The notes under the pieces were generated by a model. That model was not told the origin of the DNA. It made no database searches and saw nothing but the letters and a program-made list of their open reading frames with translations. This document shows positions 13,801 through 29,007 of a stretch of DNA of 32,017 bases, piece after piece (the stretch's first letter is position 1; the number at the start of each line of letters is the position of its first letter). The DNA is from a virus. The translations under genes and the position numbers were made by a program. Where the stretch lies: positions 1 to 32,017 of the IMG/VR virus record IMGVR_UViG_3300013132_000153; one strand, written 5' to 3'.

Positions 13801-16800
13801 GGTGAGTATGGTGCTATTGACAGCAATCCAGAAATCAATTTAATAATTAGAGAAAGTGTCTATAACGATAATCCTATTGCGTTAGAGTTTTTAGATTATA
13901 ACCAGTTACCTACATCACGCAGTGTTCCTGCGGTATATCCTAACCAATTACTAACTAAAAAACTAGATTATACCAAAAACATATTTCTTAATCGCAACCC
14001 AGATTTTAAAACCGAATTGAATCATATTGAGATGTTCGGGGATAGTTCAATCTGTGGACAGCAGCCTAAGTCGTTGGTAGCATATAGTATTGCTGGAATT
14101 GAAACTGCATCCTATAGTGTAGAAGTTATACAAGCCAGCGAAAACTATAGCGTCACAATGGTATATTCTAGCAACGGCGGAACCATTGTAGACAGCATTG
14201 GGTCTGGTGTTAGATTTGACCTGCGTATTACCAGTGAATTCCTACTAGAAAGTCTTGAATATCAAATTGATGAAGTTGCAGCAGATGAACAGCCGGGAAC
14301 AATCTCTGGCCTCGGTGAATTGTCGGCTGGCGAAGTTGATCCTGGCACTATATTAAATCTTCATGTTACCAGTTTGGATTCTGAAGATCTGAGCTACAGC
14401 ATTGAAGTACCTAGTCCCGAAGATATTCCTGGCAGTACCACCGATACTGTACGGTTAGTTAAGATTGTACCGGCAGGTGAACAGATCAAGTTCGGTGTGA
14501 CCGGTATTGACAACAACGAAACACTATGGTACAGCATTGAGACTCCCACTAATGATGATGCTCCAGGTTCGATGACTTATGATGAATTCATCACTGCCTG
14601 TACTATAGATCGTGTAACAAATCGTGTCCCTGACACTCCTGATTACTTGCTATATGAAGCATTAGATGATGATATTCGCGCTGCGGTAATTATTCGTTCT
14701 GTTGGTAATAGTACCAGTGGTAACCTGCTATATGGCGAAGATGGAGCTAATCAACTATGGCCAGATGAAATTGATGCTGACATAGTTGTTATAAATCATG
14801 GTATGCGTGATGCTGAGTTTAATGTTAGTTTAGGTGAATATAGAAATAATCTAATTCAGCTCAGAAAGAGATTGCCTGCACAAAAAATTGTAATTTGGTT
14901 GACGCCAACACCAATCTATACCGGACTAACCAATATTGTTGCTTTACCTGATCCAAGATTGGGATGGGCTCGACGAGTTGACATCAACAATTATGTAACA
15001 GTTATGCGTCAGGTTGCACGATTGTACGGTGATTATTTGGCCGACGCTACTAATATTCCAAATTGGTTTAGTTATTTGACTGAGGATGGTATACATCCTA
15101 ATCAACAAGGCTATCGTGTATTAGTCGATACCGTACTGGCTCCACAAGTACGAGAAGCTGTACGTGATTTATCTAGAAGAAAACTCAAGAAATATGAGGA
15201 TGACATAATCAGTGCAGGTTATGTAAATCGTAACGACGTTGATGAATTGATATTTGACATCACTAAGTATGTACCGACTACAGACAAACTTGAAAGCTAC
15301 TACTCAGGTTACAAAATTTGGGTAGCAAAAAACTACAACAAGGATTGGCAAGTATATAGACTGCACCAGCATGATCTTAACGTAATTGCTGCCGAACCAG
15401 ACTTAGACAGTAGATTTACCTTTGTATGTGACCAACCACATAACTTGAAGATCAACGACGCTGTGGCTATTCGTAATATCAATTCTGTGATAGATGGTTT
15501 TTATCAAATCTACCAAGCTGATGATCTGACATTCACTGTGTTTGGTACTGAAGAACAAATACGCTATCTCGATGGCAATGATGTAGCAGGCAAAACCGGA
15601 GAGTTGTTTGCATTTGTGCAAATGCGTTTTGCTTCTATCAAACAAAGGGATCTAGCTGAACCTGTCGACGGGTGGTTGCCAGATGACTTATTGTATGTAG
15701 ATGATACTGGATTTGGAACCTGGGCAGTTTACAAGCCGCGTATCATTGATGTCGATTATGTCACTGATTATGTGGACACGGTTGTACTAAGCAATGTATA
15801 CAGTGTGGTAGCGCATGATTGTGATTTTCCTGATGACAGTCTAGTAACTGATGTAAGCGACGGCGAAGATATAAACTTTTGTGTAACTAGTGCCAATGAA
15901 ACAGAAACATTATACTGGACCGTTGAACAACCGGCTGGTGACGATCTTGTGGCCACAGTAGTTACTACAGGAATCAGTAACACTTTATTGACAACTACAC
16001 AATTAAGATCTGTAAATCGATATGACTTAGTTGAAGTCAAGCGTGAAACACCTAAGGTTGACATTGACAGCATAAACAATCTTTACCTATATGATTATAT
16101 CAGTAAGCGTATACTAGCACGTTTAGATATATTAGATCCTGCTAAAGGTCGTGTACTAGGTGCTGCACTACAGGATATTGATTTTACTAGTACCTATGAT
16201 CCAGCTCGTTATCGCTATGCCGAAAATTATATAGCTACTCAAATTGACACTGAATATTACTGGGGAGAGGAGCAAGTAGGTACTTACTGGTGGAACATAG
16301 ATACTTGCAGATATTTAGATTACGAACAAGACAGTCTTGATTACAGATTAGAAAATTGGGGTCGACTATTTCCAGGATCATCAATTGATATCTACGAATG
16401 GATCAGCAGTGATGTAATTCCTTCTGAACACGTTGATCAAGGTCGCGAAGGTATTCCATTGTATGCAGATGATTCGCGTTACTCAATGAGAATACATTTA
16501 GACCCGGCCACCAATGCTTACCGCACAGTTTACTATTTTTGGGTCAAAGGACGTATTCCTCGTTACAATAAGAACAAGCGTAATAGCACCTATGTGATTG
16601 CAGATATGATAGCTAATCCTATTCAACAAGGGATACCTTATCTGGTAGCACTGCGCGATAATGCTATTGCATTATACAATGTTGGTGCGTACCTGCAAAA
16701 CGATACTACTGCGCTTTTCGTCAGCAGTAAAAAATTGATCAACGAAAATATTGTTCATACTGATTATCAATTGATACAAGAAGGCAACGAGGACAGCAAG

Positions 16801-20049: not shown

Positions 20050-20196
20050 ATGATAAATATAGAAACAACTCAACCTGAACCTCAGGAACCAGTGCCGGAG
20101 TCCGAAGTCGATGATACCAGTGGTATTGTGGTAACAGGCTTTTTAAGAATTTCGGATCCAGAATCAGGTGAAATTATTGTGCAAGGTCGTGCTTAA
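20050..20196 (+). CDS. 48-aa protein, partial paralogue of the next gene's N-terminus
   Basis: A short ATG frame fills the gap between the giant gene and the 200-aa virion gene. It has a good Shine-Dalgarno (AGGAAA at 20038-20043, six bases before the ATG) and ends two bases before the next start. The first ~25 residues are Pro/Glu-rich and acidic. The rest, TGFLRISDPESGEIIV, aligns with SGHVKIWDPETSQVLV at the start of the next protein, sharing G, I, DPE and V plus mostly conservative changes. The ribosome site, tight packing and resemblance to its neighbour argue that it is real. It may be a small virion or assembly protein built from one strand module, or a remnant of a duplicated gene. 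No known function. Confidence 0.65.
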   Translation: MINIETTQPEPQEPVPESEVDDTSGIVVTGFLRISDPESGEIIVQGRA

Positions 20197-20198
20197 AA

Positions 20199-20801
20199 AT
20201 GGAAACAAACAGAATACAAATATCTGGACATGTAAAAATTTGGGATCCTGAAACCTCGCAGGTATTAGTTGATCGCCATAATGCCATACACTATGAAAAC
20301 ATTAGTGAAGCGTTAGCCTTTAGCCTAGCACACAAAGGTAGTAATTTTGTTGCCGAAATGCACTTCGGCAAAGGTGGCACCAGCATTGATGCCACCGGTG
20401 CTATTGTGTATCTGCCGCCGAATGTCAACACTCAAAACAGTGATTTATACAACCCTACATTTTTTAAAAGTGTAGATGAAAATGATGAAAATAACGCAGA
20501 CCCAATAAGAAATAATATGAGTATTAGACATATTCCTGGCACAGTCTACAGCGATGTGTTAGTAACTTGTTTAATTGACTATGGTGAGCCAGCTGGCCAA
20601 TTGGCATTCGACAATGCCAGTACCATAGAAAGCAATTTTATTTTTGATGAGTTAGGTCTGAAAGGATGGAGTGCAGCCGGTCCCGGAACTGGTAAATTAC
20701 TAAGTCATGTAGTTTTTCATCCTGTACAAAAAAGTATAAACCGTTTAATACAAATTGATTATACCATAAGAATACAGAGCTTGACTAATCTTACCGCATG
20801 A
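20199..20801 (+). CDS. Virion structural protein of unknown role (200 aa)
   Basis: I do not recognise a named family. The N-terminus GHVKIWDPETSQVLVDRHNA, followed by IHYENIS, has a pattern I associate with short structural proteins of large marine phages (not searched). The middle holds a Gly-rich MHFGKGGTSIDATGAIVYLP and an acidic segment near residue 90. The C-terminal half has FIFDELGLKGW, a signature common in phage tail-associated proteins, then a beta-hairpin ending with IQIDYTIRIQSL. It sits between the giant gene and the S74 fibre, so a tail-fibre base or connector is a fair guess. It starts two bases after the 48-aa gene and is followed by the fibre gene after an 8-base gap, so translation is probably coupled through all three. 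Confidence 0.7.
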   Translation: METNRIQISGHVKIWDPETSQVLVDRHNAIHYENISEALAFSLAHKGSNFVAEMHFGKGGTSIDATGAIVYLPPNVNTQNSDLYNPTFFKSVDENDENNADPIRNNMSIRHIPGTVYSDVLVTCLIDYGEPAGQLAFDNASTIESNFIFDELGLKGWSAAGPGTGKLLSHVVFHPVQKSINRLIQIDYTIRIQSLTNLTA

Positions 20802-21987: not shown

Positions 21988-24369
21988 GTGACGCTACCCA
22001 AGTGGACTAATGAACCTAGCTTAACTCCATTATCACTTAAACAAATTCAAGATGAATTTGGTTGTGAGCCAATTAAGTTTGCAGCGTTTGTACCTCCACC
22101 ACTTCCGAGTCCTGCAATAACTAGCAGTACTACCGCTGGTATAATAATTGGGCCGCCTACCACTGCGACTCCTACAACCAGTGGACCCGTTGTATTACCT
22201 AATCCCTTTGATGGATATAATGAAACTCTAACCACTACGCCTGGTGGTACTTTGTCTGGTGGTGTATATACAGTAACAATTACTGCAAAAACCACATTAG
22301 AAATTAGATTAGCCAATGGCGTACCTAATACCACAGTTGATTGGAAAAGTAGTCGCAGTTCAGAAAATTATACCTTAGGTCCAGCGAATCGGCAACCCAG
22401 TGGCGGATATGTAATAAAAGAATTTTTTGAAAATACAGGCACCTTTGTTTTCCGTGCTACGTTTACACCAACTCAGCATACCAGAGTACTAAATGTTATA
22501 GTTATTGCCGAGGCTGTAGATGATCCTAGACCGCTTACAGTTACTCCAGTTGCTAATCCAGTGGATAGCTATCAACCAGTGCAAGTTAGTATAACCGGAC
22601 ATCCAGGTGATACCATACGCTGGTTTTATATAGATCCTGATATTGAGGATCTGTACTTTGATCATTATCCTGATGTAGCTGCAAGCTACGCTCTAAACAA
22701 TCAAAGCAAGAGCAAGAGAAAGTTCGGCGATGACCACTTTACACAGTTTGGCAACGGTGAAGGTCGTAAAAATTACGCAGATCTACAAAAACTACCGAGA
22801 CCAGCTGATTCTGAAGTTAAGTTAAGCGCAGCAGGAACTGCCACAGTTGATATCAGTGGGGGCACAGGGTATCTTGGGCGTAGTACTTTGTACAGGTGGA
22901 ATTTTGTAGGCTACAAAAGCTCAGGCGTCAAATTGGTAAATTTTACAATTGAGCCAATCTATTACATACAAGTAAGAGGCGCTACCACTGCCAAATTGAA
23001 TACCACAGTTACTTTGCAAATTTCAGGGCCGCCCGGCGACACAGTGACCTATACAAGATTAGATACCAATGTGTCTAATACTATTACGTTAAACTCAACA
23101 GGTGCTGGTACTCTTAGTGTCACGTGGTTGAACTCAGTTCAGACTTATGATATTAAATTTAAAGGTCTGAAAGCCAGTAACACAGTATATCATGGTATCA
23201 CTGTAAGAAATTATGTTATTGCAGTTTCACCTGCTAGTGCAGTAGTAGAAACTGGCGATGTTGGCGTACAGAGGGCTTTGGTCACAATCAGCGGAGCGCC
23301 CGGTGAAACTGTAACCTATGAATGTACTAGTTTAGCTGTGAACAACCGAGGCACATTCAAATTGGATTCCGTCAATGGCACTGCCGAAGGCGATATTATA
23401 AACGGTAGCTATCTAGCTCCTGGGACTTATGTATGGAATCTTACAGGCGACATCAGCACTAACACTGTAACTTATACTTTAGTAGTAATTAAGTATAATG
23501 AAGTAATAGGTCCGGGCACCAGTCCTTACAATAACCCTATTCATCAAACCATACAAATCACTGTCAGTGGAGGTAAGCCAAATACTGGTCTTTACTATAG
23601 CTGGACTGGACCCAATGGTATCACAGGATCCAGTGATGCAGTTGGTCCTGGGTTGTCTGGGCGGTACCAGATAAAGTTAGACAGCACTGGTAACTACACA
23701 GCACTGGATGCCAGATACGGTGTTGCAGGAACATATACTTATAGATTTGAATTTGAAGGCAGCGGTAATACCAGACAGTATGTGGTAAATGTAACATCTC
23801 AGCTATTTACAGTAGAACATAAAAATTACACTATAAATCAATACTTGGCTGCGTACCATTGGGATCAACCTATGCGAGTCACTATAAAGGCTAATCCCGG
23901 TGACAGGATTAAGGTTGGCCGTCCTACCTATCCTACCTTGGTAGACAATCCCCAAGACATAGGAGACGGGGGAATATATAGTAGATGGGAAGAAGTCACT
24001 TACTACGAGGGTCAAATTGATTCTTTAATTGACACTAGCTACTATGGAAAAAATTTAAATGGATTTCCGGAACGGACTATAGTTAGCACTGGTGATGATC
24101 TTGTAGATATCAATGGATCCGTAGCAGCAGGTATACCGTTTATTACTCAATTTAATAAAACAGTAAGAGGTTATAAAGATGGTTTTGATTTGGAAAATCA
24201 ACCAATCAAAACCATCGATTACGTTGAATTTATTCCTTATACATTTACTTTCACTAATCTAACGTCTCAGCGGGTAATTACTCAAACGATATACATTTAT
24301 AAGTATGTTGATAGAACTTACATTGATTTAAGCGGTCAAGGTGATCAAAGTGGTGGACCCACTGAATAA
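21988..24369 (+). CDS. Ig-like repeat virion protein, probable adhesin A (793 aa)
   Basis: The start is GTG, chosen because AGGAA lies five bases upstream, overlapping the fibre stop. Residues 10-35 (SLTPLSLKQIQDEFG) match a short N-terminal motif common in phage host-recognition proteins. A Thr/Pro linker (PPTTATPTTSG) follows at ~56-66. From ~190 to 640 come about five beta-sandwich repeats recognised by SITGHPGDTIRW, QISGPPGDTVTYTR, TISGAPGETVTYE, TVSGGKPNTGLYYSW and TIKANPGDRIKVG. Repeats often end in a strand such as PGTYVWNLTGDIS. No catalytic motif is visible. The position after the fibre and the close kinship with the next gene suggest an outward virion part that binds the cell surface. 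Its attachment site and ligand are unknown. Confidence 0.7.
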   Translation: MTLPKWTNEPSLTPLSLKQIQDEFGCEPIKFAAFVPPPLPSPAITSSTTAGIIIGPPTTATPTTSGPVVLPNPFDGYNETLTTTPGGTLSGGVYTVTITAKTTLEIRLANGVPNTTVDWKSSRSSENYTLGPANRQPSGGYVIKEFFENTGTFVFRATFTPTQHTRVLNVIVIAEAVDDPRPLTVTPVANPVDSYQPVQVSITGHPGDTIRWFYIDPDIEDLYFDHYPDVAASYALNNQSKSKRKFGDDHFTQFGNGEGRKNYADLQKLPRPADSEVKLSAAGTATVDISGGTGYLGRSTLYRWNFVGYKSSGVKLVNFTIEPIYYIQVRGATTAKLNTTVTLQISGPPGDTVTYTRLDTNVSNTITLNSTGAGTLSVTWLNSVQTYDIKFKGLKASNTVYHGITVRNYVIAVSPASAVVETGDVGVQRALVTISGAPGETVTYECTSLAVNNRGTFKLDSVNGTAEGDIINGSYLAPGTYVWNLTGDISTNTVTYTLVVIKYNEVIGPGTSPYNNPIHQTIQITVSGGKPNTGLYYSWTGPNGITGSSDAVGPGLSGRYQIKLDSTGNYTALDARYGVAGTYTYRFEFEGSGNTRQYVVNVTSQLFTVEHKNYTINQYLAAYHWDQPMRVTIKANPGDRIKVGRPTYPTLVDNPQDIGDGGIYSRWEEVTYYEGQIDSLIDTSYYGKNLNGFPERTIVSTGDDLVDINGSVAAGIPFITQFNKTVRGYKDGFDLENQPIKTIDYVEFIPYTFTFTNLTSQRVITQTIYIYKYVDRTYIDLSGQGDQSGGPTE

Positions 24370-24387: not shown

Positions 24388-27300
24388 ATGTCTAAACAGT
24401 TTATTGTACGATTAAGAAAAAACGGTAAAATTGTAGCTAACTCACAAATAGTTACTATAAATGGCCTGGGCGATGGCTCAGTGAGTTCCAATGATTTTTC
24501 TGATCGTATCCTACGTGCGAATTTTACTACTGTCAGTGGCGTAGCTAGTTTACGAAAGATAGTTACCACACCCGGCTGGACCTTAATTGCTACAAATCCC
24601 GCCATCAACGGTGGTATAAACCTAAATTTTAGTTGGTCAACTACACGTAGAACTGTTGATGCTATTAGTTGGTATGCTGTTTATCCTGATACCACAATAA
24701 TTTATTCTGGACCGGCACTATCAAACACCGGTTCTCCATTTAATTTATACACACCCGGAACATCGGGTAGTTTCTTTGTACCAACTTTACCGGTTGGCAC
24801 AGAACAGCAATTTCAAATTGTTTTGTATAACGGAAACCTTAGTTCGGGTACATTTTTAGCAAGATCAGGAACATGTACAGTACAAGCATTACGTTTAGAA
24901 GTTTCCGGTGCTAGCCCAATCAATGTAGGTAATACTGTATTGGTTAAGATCAAAGGTGCACCATTTGAAGTGGTAAACTACACTGGGGAAACCAGTGGTC
25001 AGGTTACATTAGATTATAAAGGTGATTTTTACGGTAGTCTAACCAGTAGTGTCACATTGGGCATTGGAAATTATACTTGGACTTTTGATGGTAGTATTAC
25101 TGATAACGTAGAACAGTTGACAGTAAAAATTACTAGTGGTAAAGCACTATCTGTGACTGGACCTAGTAAGGTTGCCAAAGGCAAAATGTTTACTGTGTTT
25201 ATCAATGGTGAACCCGGCGACGAAATCAAAGCCACTCCTAGTGGAGCGCAATTAGGACAACCACCATTATTCTTTTATCTGCCTGCCACAGGCCCGTCAG
25301 CTGGCAGCACCACAGCAGATCTTAGTAAGAATGGCAACTTAGCAATCGGTACTTACAATTGGGTATTCAGTGGTAAGACCAGTGAGCCAGCCAGAAATTA
25401 TCAAGTCAGCGTTGAAGAATTCATCCTGCGAGTTAAGGGTCCAGCTCAGGCTCTAAGTAATAGTCCAGTGGTAGTTCAGATCAGTGGTGCTCCTGAGGAA
25501 AATGTAGAAATACGCAGATCTGGAGTACAAAAACTCACTAAACGCTTGTTATCAGATGGAAACATCAATGTTGACGTCAACGCAGATCGTAGCTTAATCA
25601 GTGGAGAGTATACGTGGGAATTTGATGGTGATGCAACTTTCAATACTCCTAATCCTACTCACACTGTGACCATAGTCAGTGAATATAGCATCAATGTGTT
25701 TGATGGTGACGGCTTAACCTATAGTAATGTATATGTACAGGGACAACCGATCAATGTAGCCATACATGGTGCTCCTAGTGAAAAAATTACAGTACGCCGC
25801 GACAGTAACAACGACGGCGTACCCGATGTAACAGATCGTTATACATTCCTTGATGCATTTGGCAGCGGCAGTATCAACCTTGCTCCTACTACTTTAGCAT
25901 TAGGAAACTACATGTGGAATTTTACTGGTAATATCAGTAAGAATCGTGCTTATTGGCCAGTCAGTGTAGTGAGTGTAAAAAATATCTCAGTTACTCCAAC
26001 GAGTCCACAGACTATCTTAGTTGGTGAGCGTGCCAATGTTATTGTAGATGGCAATCCTTATGAATTAGTTACATCAACCAGAGCAGGCAGCGAATCAGTG
26101 GATTTTGCACTTGATGTAACTGGTACAGCCAGTGGTGATTTATTTAAAGGACTTAGTCCTCCGGTTGGTTCATACAAATATTATTTTAGTGGAACCAAGG
26201 CCCCTAACAAAGATTATCCATACCAGGTAAATGTGTTAGCTGCGCCTATAGTGCCTGTGACCCCAAGTTATACAGTACGTGCTAAGAATCCCCAAAACAA
26301 TTTAACAATAACCAGCGCCGGCGAAGGTGATAGTATAAAATTTGAAGTTGAGTCAGTTGGGCCTCCTCTTAACACTACCTTGGCTTATACAATAACTGGT
26401 ATTGATGGTAATGATGTCACAGTAACTAGTTTCTTATCTGGTGCATTGGTAGTTGGTGATGATGGATATACTAAGGCCACTGTAACAGGGTTCAGTAGTG
26501 TGGTATTACCTCTGCGAATGGACGAACTAACAGAAGGCACCGAGTATGTCAAGTTTCAATTGACTATTGCTCCTACTGCTAATGTAACCATACCAATCAC
26601 TGATACCAGCAAGTCACAGTTAGCAATGATTGTTCATCGTGGTGGCAGTAACCAAGTACGCGAAGGTCAAGTTGCTATATTTGATGTGACTACCAGCAAC
26701 GTACCAAACGGGCGTACTCTATATTATAGAGTTTTTAAAGCAGCTGGTTATAATGAAGTGGTAGCACTAGACTTCCAAGGTGGTAGCTTGGGTGTTGAAA
26801 ATAGTTTAGTTCGTGGTAGTTTCACTGTGACAGCAGATGATTCAACCGGAATTGGGTCTGGCAGTTTCCAATTTAATATTGCCAGTGATTCATTTATTGA
26901 TGCTGATGAAGCATTTATTGTGCAAGTATGGAAAGACCCAAGTAATAAAAATACCATGGTTGGTATAACTAATGTACCTATTAGTATAATTGATGCTAAT
27001 ACACCTAGTGCCGATTTTGAAATTACTAACTTTTATATTCTTAGTGTAGTAGATCAGTGCATCGATGCATTTTGGTCAGTGACTGGTAATATCATTGCAC
27101 ACGAAGTTAGATACACACCAAATGCTAGTAACTATAACTCTGATAATAATTATCAGGCCTACAGTATCATAAATCCCGGTAATGCAGTATTCACTGAGCT
27201 AAGTTGGGGGCCGATACCAGTCGGTCTACAAACAGAATCTGGATTCACGCATACTTTTAGACTATGGGTGACTGGTACAGATGGTACAAGAAAATATCGC

Positions 27301-29007
27301 GATGTAACAGCATTGATTCGTCATCCAGCTAGTTTAGTAAATTACGGGCTAAACACTGTTAGTAATGTACCGTTCTTAGTGAACGAAGGCGAATTCTTAG
27401 ACATGATTGTCGACAGTAATTCCAGTGGATCTGTGTTTATTACATTCGACATGGCCGGGCAGATGACCAGTAATGTTACGTCTAGTGCTCTAAGTCTTAA
27501 CACAAGTACCGGTAGATGGACTAGAGTTTTTAGAGTAACTAGTACCGAGGACACAGCATATACCGGAAACAGAGATGTCAATGTACAGATACGTACCGGC
27601 AGCATAACAGGTAATATTAAAGTACAAAAGCCTGTAACCATTGTTGAAGATGATCCGAATTATTCGGGATGGACTATTGAGCCAGCTGATGTTGATGACG
27701 TTATAGGGGGTGGTTCGTCGGCTGTGTTTGATGTGACAATACCAAGTGGTCAAAGAACAGCCGCGCAAGGACAAACATTTTATTGGTTCCTTACAGTACC
27801 AAGTTCAAACACAGCCTTTTCGGGGTCGGCGGTTAGCTCAAGCAATCGCAGTGGAACCGTGGTAATTCCAAGCACACATCCATTTCAGATTTCGGTGCCC
27901 ACTAACACCATAACTGGTGCAGCACAACAAACAGAATTAGTTATTGCAATCACTAATTCTATAACTGGAACTCAAGTAGGTAGAAGTAGCGTACTAACTA
28001 TAGCTTCTGCACCAACAATAACATATCCTACAACATCAACACATGGCACACTGTTTTCCTGGAGCATTTCCGGTGCTCAGCCTAATGAAGGATGGTTTGC
28101 TCAAACTACTACAAACTGGCCTGGTGGCGGAGCAGCGTCAAGAATACCTGGCGTAGGGTACTTGTATGTAAATGCGTCTGGTAGTGCAAGTTATACCGAC
28201 GGTAATTGGGGTTCAATTGCACCTGGCTATACAACCAACACAGGCGCAGTTACAGTGCGCTTCACTTTTGAAAAGTCTGGACTAACTGTGGATAAATCCC
28301 ATACAGTAAGTGCAGCAGCAACTACAGCAGCACCGACCACAGCAACACCGACCACAGCAACACCGACCACAGCAACACCGACCACAGCAACACCAACCAC
28401 AGCAACACCGACCACTTCTGGTACCACAGCCGCACCAGCAACCACCGTGTCGCCTACTACATCAAGTGCCAATCCTTATGCTGGCAATTTACAGTTTGGA
28501 AGAGTCCCTACTGGACAAGTAGATGGGGATGGTGTACCTATCGCGTATGATGGATTTAAATATGCAAATAAGGGAAATATTACACGTATTGTAGTAAAGA
28601 CAAGACTTTCTGGCGCATTATTACCGTCTGAATATGATCAAATGACAGACCCACTCGGGGCCGAAGAAGTTCGTTATGACAGTACTTGGCCCGATAGCAG
28701 TTATTATGATTCCGATGGCGTACAGCAGCCAATAAGTTATGCTCTACCTGCTAATAATGTACTTAAAGTCTTCCCAACTAGTATAGGACACAGTTATGAA
28801 CAGTATGTCCAATTGGACGGTGGTCGTCTCGCATCTAGAATATTTGTGTACGAAAATAACAGCTCCACACCCAATTGGAGTTCGACACACAGTTCTAATC
28901 CTTCAGACTTTGAAAGATCGGGCGGAACTATGACCAGCGGCGGTGGTGACATTGATGGTAATGTTGAGCCATTGACCACTACAACTACAACATTACCCCC
29001 AGCGTAG
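24388..29007 (+). CDS. Ig-like and Calx-beta-like repeat virion protein, probable adhesin B (1539 aa)
   Basis: Residues ~170-620 carry about five repeats like those of the preceding protein: KIKGAPFEVVNY, FINGEPGDEIKA, QISGAPEENVEI, AIHGAPSEKITV, VDGNPYELVTS, most closing with a strand like GNYTWTFDGSI or GTYNWVFSGKT. Residues ~640-870 resemble Calx-beta modules (GEGDSIKFEVESVGP, DELTEGTEYVKFQL; then REGQVAIFDVTTS, SFIDADEAFIVQVW). Residues ~1310-1365 are a Thr/Ala/Pro linker with a TPTTA repeat. The final ~170 residues form a separate domain ending in a Thr run and PPA. No enzyme motif is visible. It overlaps the convergent minus-strand gene by 15 bases. Tail-exterior adhesin or head-decoration protein are both possible; location next to fibre genes favours the tail. 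Confidence 0.7.
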   Translation: MSKQFIVRLRKNGKIVANSQIVTINGLGDGSVSSNDFSDRILRANFTTVSGVASLRKIVTTPGWTLIATNPAINGGINLNFSWSTTRRTVDAISWYAVYPDTTIIYSGPALSNTGSPFNLYTPGTSGSFFVPTLPVGTEQQFQIVLYNGNLSSGTFLARSGTCTVQALRLEVSGASPINVGNTVLVKIKGAPFEVVNYTGETSGQVTLDYKGDFYGSLTSSVTLGIGNYTWTFDGSITDNVEQLTVKITSGKALSVTGPSKVAKGKMFTVFINGEPGDEIKATPSGAQLGQPPLFFYLPATGPSAGSTTADLSKNGNLAIGTYNWVFSGKTSEPARNYQVSVEEFILRVKGPAQALSNSPVVVQISGAPEENVEIRRSGVQKLTKRLLSDGNINVDVNADRSLISGEYTWEFDGDATFNTPNPTHTVTIVSEYSINVFDGDGLTYSNVYVQGQPINVAIHGAPSEKITVRRDSNNDGVPDVTDRYTFLDAFGSGSINLAPTTLALGNYMWNFTGNISKNRAYWPVSVVSVKNISVTPTSPQTILVGERANVIVDGNPYELVTSTRAGSESVDFALDVTGTASGDLFKGLSPPVGSYKYYFSGTKAPNKDYPYQVNVLAAPIVPVTPSYTVRAKNPQNNLTITSAGEGDSIKFEVESVGPPLNTTLAYTITGIDGNDVTVTSFLSGALVVGDDGYTKATVTGFSSVVLPLRMDELTEGTEYVKFQLTIAPTANVTIPITDTSKSQLAMIVHRGGSNQVREGQVAIFDVTTSNVPNGRTLYYRVFKAAGYNEVVALDFQGGSLGVENSLVRGSFTVTADDSTGIGSGSFQFNIASDSFIDADEAFIVQVWKDPSNKNTMVGITNVPISIIDANTPSADFEITNFYILSVVDQCIDAFWSVTGNIIAHEVRYTPNASNYNSDNNYQAYSIINPGNAVFTELSWGPIPVGLQTESGFTHTFRLWVTGTDGTRKYRDVTALIRHPASLVNYGLNTVSNVPFLVNEGEFLDMIVDSNSSGSVFITFDMAGQMTSNVTSSALSLNTSTGRWTRVFRVTSTEDTAYTGNRDVNVQIRTGSITGNIKVQKPVTIVEDDPNYSGWTIEPADVDDVIGGGSSAVFDVTIPSGQRTAAQGQTFYWFLTVPSSNTAFSGSAVSSSNRSGTVVIPSTHPFQISVPTNTITGAAQQTELVIAITNSITGTQVGRSSVLTIASAPTITYPTTSTHGTLFSWSISGAQPNEGWFAQTTTNWPGGGAASRIPGVGYLYVNASGSASYTDGNWGSIAPGYTTNTGAVTVRFTFEKSGLTVDKSHTVSAAATTAAPTTATPTTATPTTATPTTATPTTATPTTSGTTAAPATTVSPTTSSANPYAGNLQFGRVPTGQVDGDGVPIAYDGFKYANKGNITRIVVKTRLSGALLPSEYDQMTDPLGAEEVRYDSTWPDSSYYDSDGVQQPISYALPANNVLKVFPTSIGHSYEQYVQLDGGRLASRIFVYENNSSTPNWSSTHSSNPSDFERSGGTMTSGGGDIDGNVEPLTTTTTTLPPA
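28332..28415 (+). repeat. 15-bp tandem repeat, about 5.6 copies, encoding TPTTA
   Basis: The unit ACCGACCACAGCAAC is repeated perfectly four times from 28332, once with a single G-to-A change (28392-28406), and then partially to 28415. It codes for a Thr/Pro/Ala-rich linker. As the unit is a multiple of three, copy-number slippage changes linker length but keeps the frame. Confidence 0.95.

Follow-up and report, generated by a model that had tools for sequence, protein, structure and literature searches.

The analysed stretch of viral DNA (32,017 nt, hereafter the window) exhibits a 48-aa ORF, here called the mini-gene, located between the gene of a giant virion protein and that of a 200-aa fibre-type protein (the "body"). 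This mini-gene is a genuine conserved gene under purifying selection. Sequence comparisons suggest that its product is probably the N-terminal arm of the fibre-type tail/baseplate protein next to it, made as a separate chain and supplied in trans. No published account of such a mini-gene was found in the literature.

The mini-gene within the tail module

Profile searches against PHROG and Pfam identify the window as a myophage tail/baseplate module. The gene order is a hub/lysozyme-like protein, gp25-like and gp6-like wedge proteins, the giant protein, the mini-gene, the 200-aa protein and a fibre-like Peptidase_S74 protein. The mini-gene starts at an ATG (position 20050) and stops at a TAA (20194-20196), exactly as given in the preliminary description of this DNA. 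That description also ascribed to it a Shine-Dalgarno sequence of its own and a tight packing between two genes. Both are confirmed: an AGGAA precedes the start codon (Table 1), and the gaps are 15 nt to the stop codon of the upstream 4073-aa gene and 2 nt to the ATG (20199) of the 200-aa gene. The mini-gene was further said to fall under the usual limits of gene calling, yet its 41-aa counterpart in Pseudomonas phage PA5oct, gp356, has been annotated.

Table 1. Positions of the mini-gene, its parts and its neighbours in the window
Feature	Position	Strand	Description	Evidence
Giant virion structural protein, 4073 aa	7813..20034	+	phrog_10938; upstream of the mini-gene
Shine-Dalgarno AGGAA	20038..20042	+	7 nt 5' of the mini-gene ATG	Same in the nearest relative (L001)
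Mini-gene, 48 aa	20050..20196	+	Acidic/proline-rich leader and beta-hairpin; end QGRA*	ORF, homologues, purifying selection
Conserved C-terminal block of the mini-protein	20110..20193	+	PDE-like motif (here VDDTSG), hairpin and QGRA	Alignment, codon analysis
Mini-protein hairpin TGFLRISDPESGEIIV	20134..20181	+	Common to the 200-aa neighbour	Alignments; L089 counterpart predicted as beta-hairpin
200-aa leaderless body	20199..20801	+	Fibre-type virion protein, phrog_11259	PHROG E-value 6.7e-70; AF2 pLDDT 86.8; PA5oct counterpart gp357 noted in ESI-MS/MS
Body's own N-terminal hairpin SGHVKIWDPETSQVLV	20223..20270	+	Fast-evolving	39% mean identity within the clade
Fibre-like protein, 389 aa	20810..21979	+	Peptidase_S74 chaperone domain; directly after the body

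The body matches the phrog_11259 profile over residues 2 to 193 and is a clear member of this family. Its named relatives are nearly all from jumbo-phage records (e.g. RaK2 ORF064, CBB gp230, PA5oct gp357 and Atu_ph07 gp177). No function is assigned to the family. The mini-protein shares homology with the N-terminal segment of the leader-bearing members, but has no PHROG or Pfam match of its own, phrog_11259 included; its counterpart in Agrobacterium phage Atu_ph07 reaches only an E-value of 0.068 against this profile. In XacN1 and RAS14 the body domain makes up the N-terminal portion of longer proteins, each about 400 aa in size (L109:2471-3679, L110:2474-3670). The family therefore occurs also with a C-terminal extension.

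In the AF2 model of the body (pTM 0.84), the N-terminal hairpin (residues 6-15 and 22-27) is an integral and confident part of the fold. No solved structure related to the body was found by sequence or by fold (best E-value = 0.02). Its BFVD matches are uncharacterised and fibre-type phage proteins, and the fused family member L012 exhibits a weak match to a tail-fibre PHROG. The two ORFs of locus L089, which lie in one frame, were folded as an artificial single chain of mini-protein and body with the stop codon read as Gln. The leader was disordered in this model and the mini part formed a separate hairpin (pLDDT 63-74); the mini half derives from one sequence and is uninformative on docking. 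An alignment including rows of the mini-protein only set these rows on the hairpin of the body, and was left unused.

Several features of the neighbouring genes are described here in their own right. Within the giant protein, a GDSL-type lipase/acylhydrolase domain spans residues 2279-2436 (window 14647-15120; Pfam PF13472, E-value = 1.7e-13), and residues 1855-1884 form a CBM_5_12 carbohydrate-binding module (E-value = 1.2e-07). An enzymatic domain is thus embedded in a tail structural protein. The 389-aa fibre-like protein begins with MDYLINKANGDLLVRVREGTLDTTTTSLALVGKNYSGYGESINENLVHLLE, and in the split loci examined the gene after the body has a similar start; an N-terminal segment shared among fibre-like proteins thus sits immediately 3' of the body. 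The two genes further downstream (21988-24369, 793 aa; 24388-29007, 1539 aa) have no PHROG or Pfam match and may encode host-recognition proteins.

Similarity to the N-termini of fused proteins

According to the preliminary description, the mini-gene copies the N-terminus of its neighbour. The resemblance itself is significant. Segments DTSGIVVTGFLRISDPESGEIIV of the mini-protein and ETNRIQISGHVKIWDPETSQVLV of the neighbour align with a BLOSUM62 local score of 51, above all of 5000 shuffles (mean 23.7, maximum 45), and a chance resemblance is thereby rejected. It lies in the C-terminal half of the mini-protein. A beta-hairpin segment is common to both products, and the mini-gene is also tied to its neighbour by position.

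The direction of the proposed copying proved wrong. In many jumbo phages of the group, a single fused protein of 210-240 aa comprises leader, beta-hairpin and body. The N-terminal extension of such bodies, in relatives lacking the mini-gene, consists of an acidic Asn/Gln-rich leader, a PDE-like motif and a hairpin (e.g. MINNDNTDKTMEEKTQDIVQKKPDETSGIHVQGHIKIFDPESGEVYIDKRNAIHYEN in L012). The mini-protein exhibits scores of 90-101 against three fused N-termini, with alignments covering most of its length, and its end falls near the point where the fused protein runs on into NAIHYEN. Over the window clade, the mean score of the mini-proteins is 91 against 70 fused N-termini and 36 against the N-terminus of their own neighbour. 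Most of the small ORF is thus homologous to the fused N-terminal extension, as expected for a split gene. Within the same clade, the mini hairpin and the body core are conserved at 72% and 74% identity, respectively, versus 39% for the hairpin of the body itself. The higher scores against fused N-termini and the conservation of the mini hairpin together argue that the ancestral N-terminus survives in better-conserved form in the mini-protein, and that the present N-terminus of the neighbour is a divergent one, freed from constraint.

These comparisons bear on the role proposed in the preliminary description, namely that the mini-protein is an assembly regulator, which could compete with a beta-sheet of the body or complete it. 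Spelled out, the mini-protein would compete with this sheet or temporarily complete it during folding or oligomerisation, without being a structural part of the virion. Such a role would agree with the hairpin common to both products and with the position of the mini-gene immediately upstream. As the hairpin of the body is predicted with confidence to be integral to its fold, a mimic could exchange with it. It would also agree with the mass spectrometry of PA5oct virions, where the body gp357 is noted in ESI-MS/MS and the mini-protein gp356 is not; the small size of gp356 could explain this. However, the mini hairpin is poorly similar to that of its own body, with scores down to 17 in L088, while strongly similar to fused N-termini, and it is better conserved than the hairpin that it supposedly mimics. 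Competition also leaves unexplained why the leader is placed either on the mini-protein or on the body (see below). We therefore regard an assembly regulator as unlikely.

Leader distribution and recurrent splitting

The loci compared comprise 80 IMG/VR loci encoding the 200-aa family, 19 found with a pattern of the mini-gene end, 80 distant relatives and 80 found with a profile of the mini-protein; because the scans were pattern-based and two of them favoured mini-genes or close relatives, the frequencies in this set are not population estimates. All 19 pattern matches lie in ORFs stopping right after GR[ADV]. The downstream sequence was long enough in 18 of them, and in each of these a gene of the 200-aa family follows within 1-25 nt. 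Over all sets together, a mini-gene lies upstream of 34 distinct phrog_11259 bodies, that of the window among them, and within about 70 nt in 32 cases. The preliminary description had suggested looking for the same small frame in related phages, and took its loss in close relatives as evidence against the gene. The frame recurs in front of these 34 bodies and is unbroken in every distinct relative within the supported clade of the window. More distant relatives lack the mini-gene; many of them exhibit the same module fused to the neighbour, and some have no such module. Mini-proteins of several deep lineages end with NKRG, TGN, TRGD or EGRA. A search for the mini-gene elsewhere in 17 records without a body-adjacent copy returned only matches to the body N-terminus or weak matches. 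The phage collection contained no nucleotide-level relative and no tblastn match to the window mini-protein. RaK2 gp063-gp065 are not mentioned in two papers on RaK2 (PMC10253068, PMC3622015).

Counterparts are found in named phages. PA5oct gp356, annotated as a hypothetical protein, lies between the giant virion protein and the body, and exhibits an acidic leader, PDE, a hairpin and a short basic end. It shares only 12% identity with the window copy, and ends with NKRG* instead of QGRA*. Atu_ph07 gp179 is a small mini-like ORF with the hairpin IQGHVLIRDPESGEVFV, upstream of a leaderless body. It differs from the window copy by the intervening GIY-YIG/NUMOD3 endonuclease gene gp178 and by its C-terminus, and it has no P[DN][ED] motif.

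The motif P[DN][ED] was found in the body N-terminus in none of the 34 loci with a mini-gene, versus 70 of 154 without (Fisher test, 2e-8, relatedness ignored). Where the small ORF is present, the leader is missing from the body, as expected for a split gene. Conversely, 31 of the 34 mini-genes exhibit P[DN][ED] or VD[ED]. The median length of the body N-terminus is 29 residues with a mini-gene and 44 without (p = 9e-13). The other 84 of the 154 bodies without a mini-gene have no P[DN][ED]; some possess a leader with another motif, others a short leader or none. The L211 body has an ambiguous start codon. Because the records of RaK2 and SCTP-2 exhibit neither leader nor mini-gene, the arm is dispensable in some lineages and the leader not universally needed.

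On a phylogenetic tree of the body core, from which the N-terminal segment was left out, the split state requires 8 changes. A careful tree thinned to 60 rows, from which the farthest lineages were removed, requires 7 changes, at least 5 of which are forced by well-supported branches, and on this tree the grouping of all split forms in one clade is rejected (p-AU = 2.9e-5). Even close relatives differ in state (L059 split, L050 fused). A single origin being rejected, switching between fused and split states is recurrent. Where split lineages are nested in fused clades, splitting is the favoured direction. As in other split (fission) genes and separately encoded domains, one ancestral polypeptide would correspond to two adjacent ORFs in some lineages. 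Here, unlike in those, both halves possess a hairpin, the split is recurrent and, of the two hairpins, it is the detached one that has been conserved.

A homing-endonuclease-like gene of the GIY-YIG/NUMOD3 type lies between mini-gene and body in two lineages, Atu_ph07 (gp178; L084:3279-3992) and L114 (L114:3309-3980). This suggests that insertions recur at the mini/body junction, and that they perhaps opened a way to the duplication. No endonuclease gene is present at the junction in the window, and a gene split by a homing endonuclease was accordingly rejected as a description of this locus.

It may also be asked whether the mini-protein became an independent small protein with a role away from the body (e.g. 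through binding of its leader to the giant protein or to a host factor), its position reflecting only history. The strong divergence of the PA5oct-like clade, whose copies share 12-31% identity with that of the window, and the retention of the mini-gene where endonuclease genes between it and the body are tolerated are consistent with this. On the other hand, every mini-gene found precedes a body gene wherever the contig permits the check, usually by a few bases, and its leader motif is never found in the body as well. A role away from the body is for these reasons improbable.

Selection and probable role of the detached arm

The codon statistics of the mini-gene are those of a protein-coding gene. 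For the last 28 codons of 18 window-type copies, mean pS is 0.69 and mean pN 0.20 (pN/pS = 0.29). Read in the two alternative frames, they give pN/pS of 1.36 and 1.71, and variability is by far the highest at third codon positions. Compared with the nearest relative (L001), the mini-gene exhibits 8 synonymous and 1 non-synonymous codon differences, and the body 35 and 1. The preliminary description had proposed a low ratio of this kind (dN/dS) as a check.

The spacing from the mini-gene stop to the body start takes the values -4, -1, 0, 1, 2, 3, 8, 10, 15, 16, 17, 20 and 25 nt among adjacent pairs. As this spacing is variable and the frame relation is not conserved among relatives, a programmed frameshift into the body, or readthrough of the stop codon, was rejected as unlikely. 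The very short spacing or overlap in most loci, together with the QGR codons (CAAGGT) that can double as a weak Shine-Dalgarno sequence for the body, could point to a translational leader, i.e. a short upstream frame mainly coupling or tuning translation of the body gene. However, the amino acids are conserved while the codons vary, loci with gaps of 15-25 nt possess a separate AAAGGG-type site and still end with GRA or GRD, and L015 retains GRA by other codons; this explanation is very unlikely. The mini-gene is by homology a partial duplicate, but strong purifying selection and persistence over deep divergence leave scarcely any room for a decaying, non-functional remnant of a partial tandem duplication, and a pseudogene is rejected by the codon statistics.

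We thus return to the arm supplied in trans as the probable explanation. The window phage and several other lineages carry the leader-plus-hairpin module on its own mini-gene, and the body restarts with a second, divergent hairpin and no leader. Under the proposed scheme, mini-gene and body gene would be translated in tandem. The fold of the body would be completed by its own hairpin, and the mini-protein would dock via the conserved hairpin at the assembly site used by the fused arm, presenting its disordered leader in trans. The repeated alternation between fused and split states suggests, by the Rosetta-stone argument, that the mini-protein and the body act in one and the same assembly. The placement of the leader on either one or the other fits a structural arm in trans better than a competitor. 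We infer that the mini-protein is physically associated with the body, that it is present in the virion and that its leader has a binding partner.

In donor-strand complementation, known from pilus biogenesis, a beta segment is supplied by another chain. By analogy, the mini-protein could supply a beta segment from a separate chain. Unlike in that system, the modelled body possesses its own N-terminal hairpin with high confidence and exhibits no sign of a missing strand.

With a detached arm, the phage might also set the number of arms independently of that of body subunits, for instance decorating a symmetric baseplate or fibre-attachment ring at only some of its positions and so resolving a symmetry mismatch. 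We propose this as a speculation, with little expectation that it holds. If it did, the repeated switching between fused and split states would represent the repeated evolution of such tuning in jumbo-phage tails.

A mini-gene easily missed in annotation thus turns out to be a conserved part of the jumbo-phage tail module. The N-terminal arm of a virion protein has been separated from its body, or rejoined to it, several times, and can apparently work detached from the protein that carries it in many relatives. The function of the leader thereby becomes testable by comparing the natural fused and split versions, which provides a handle on an unnamed family of tail proteins across jumbo phages of many hosts.
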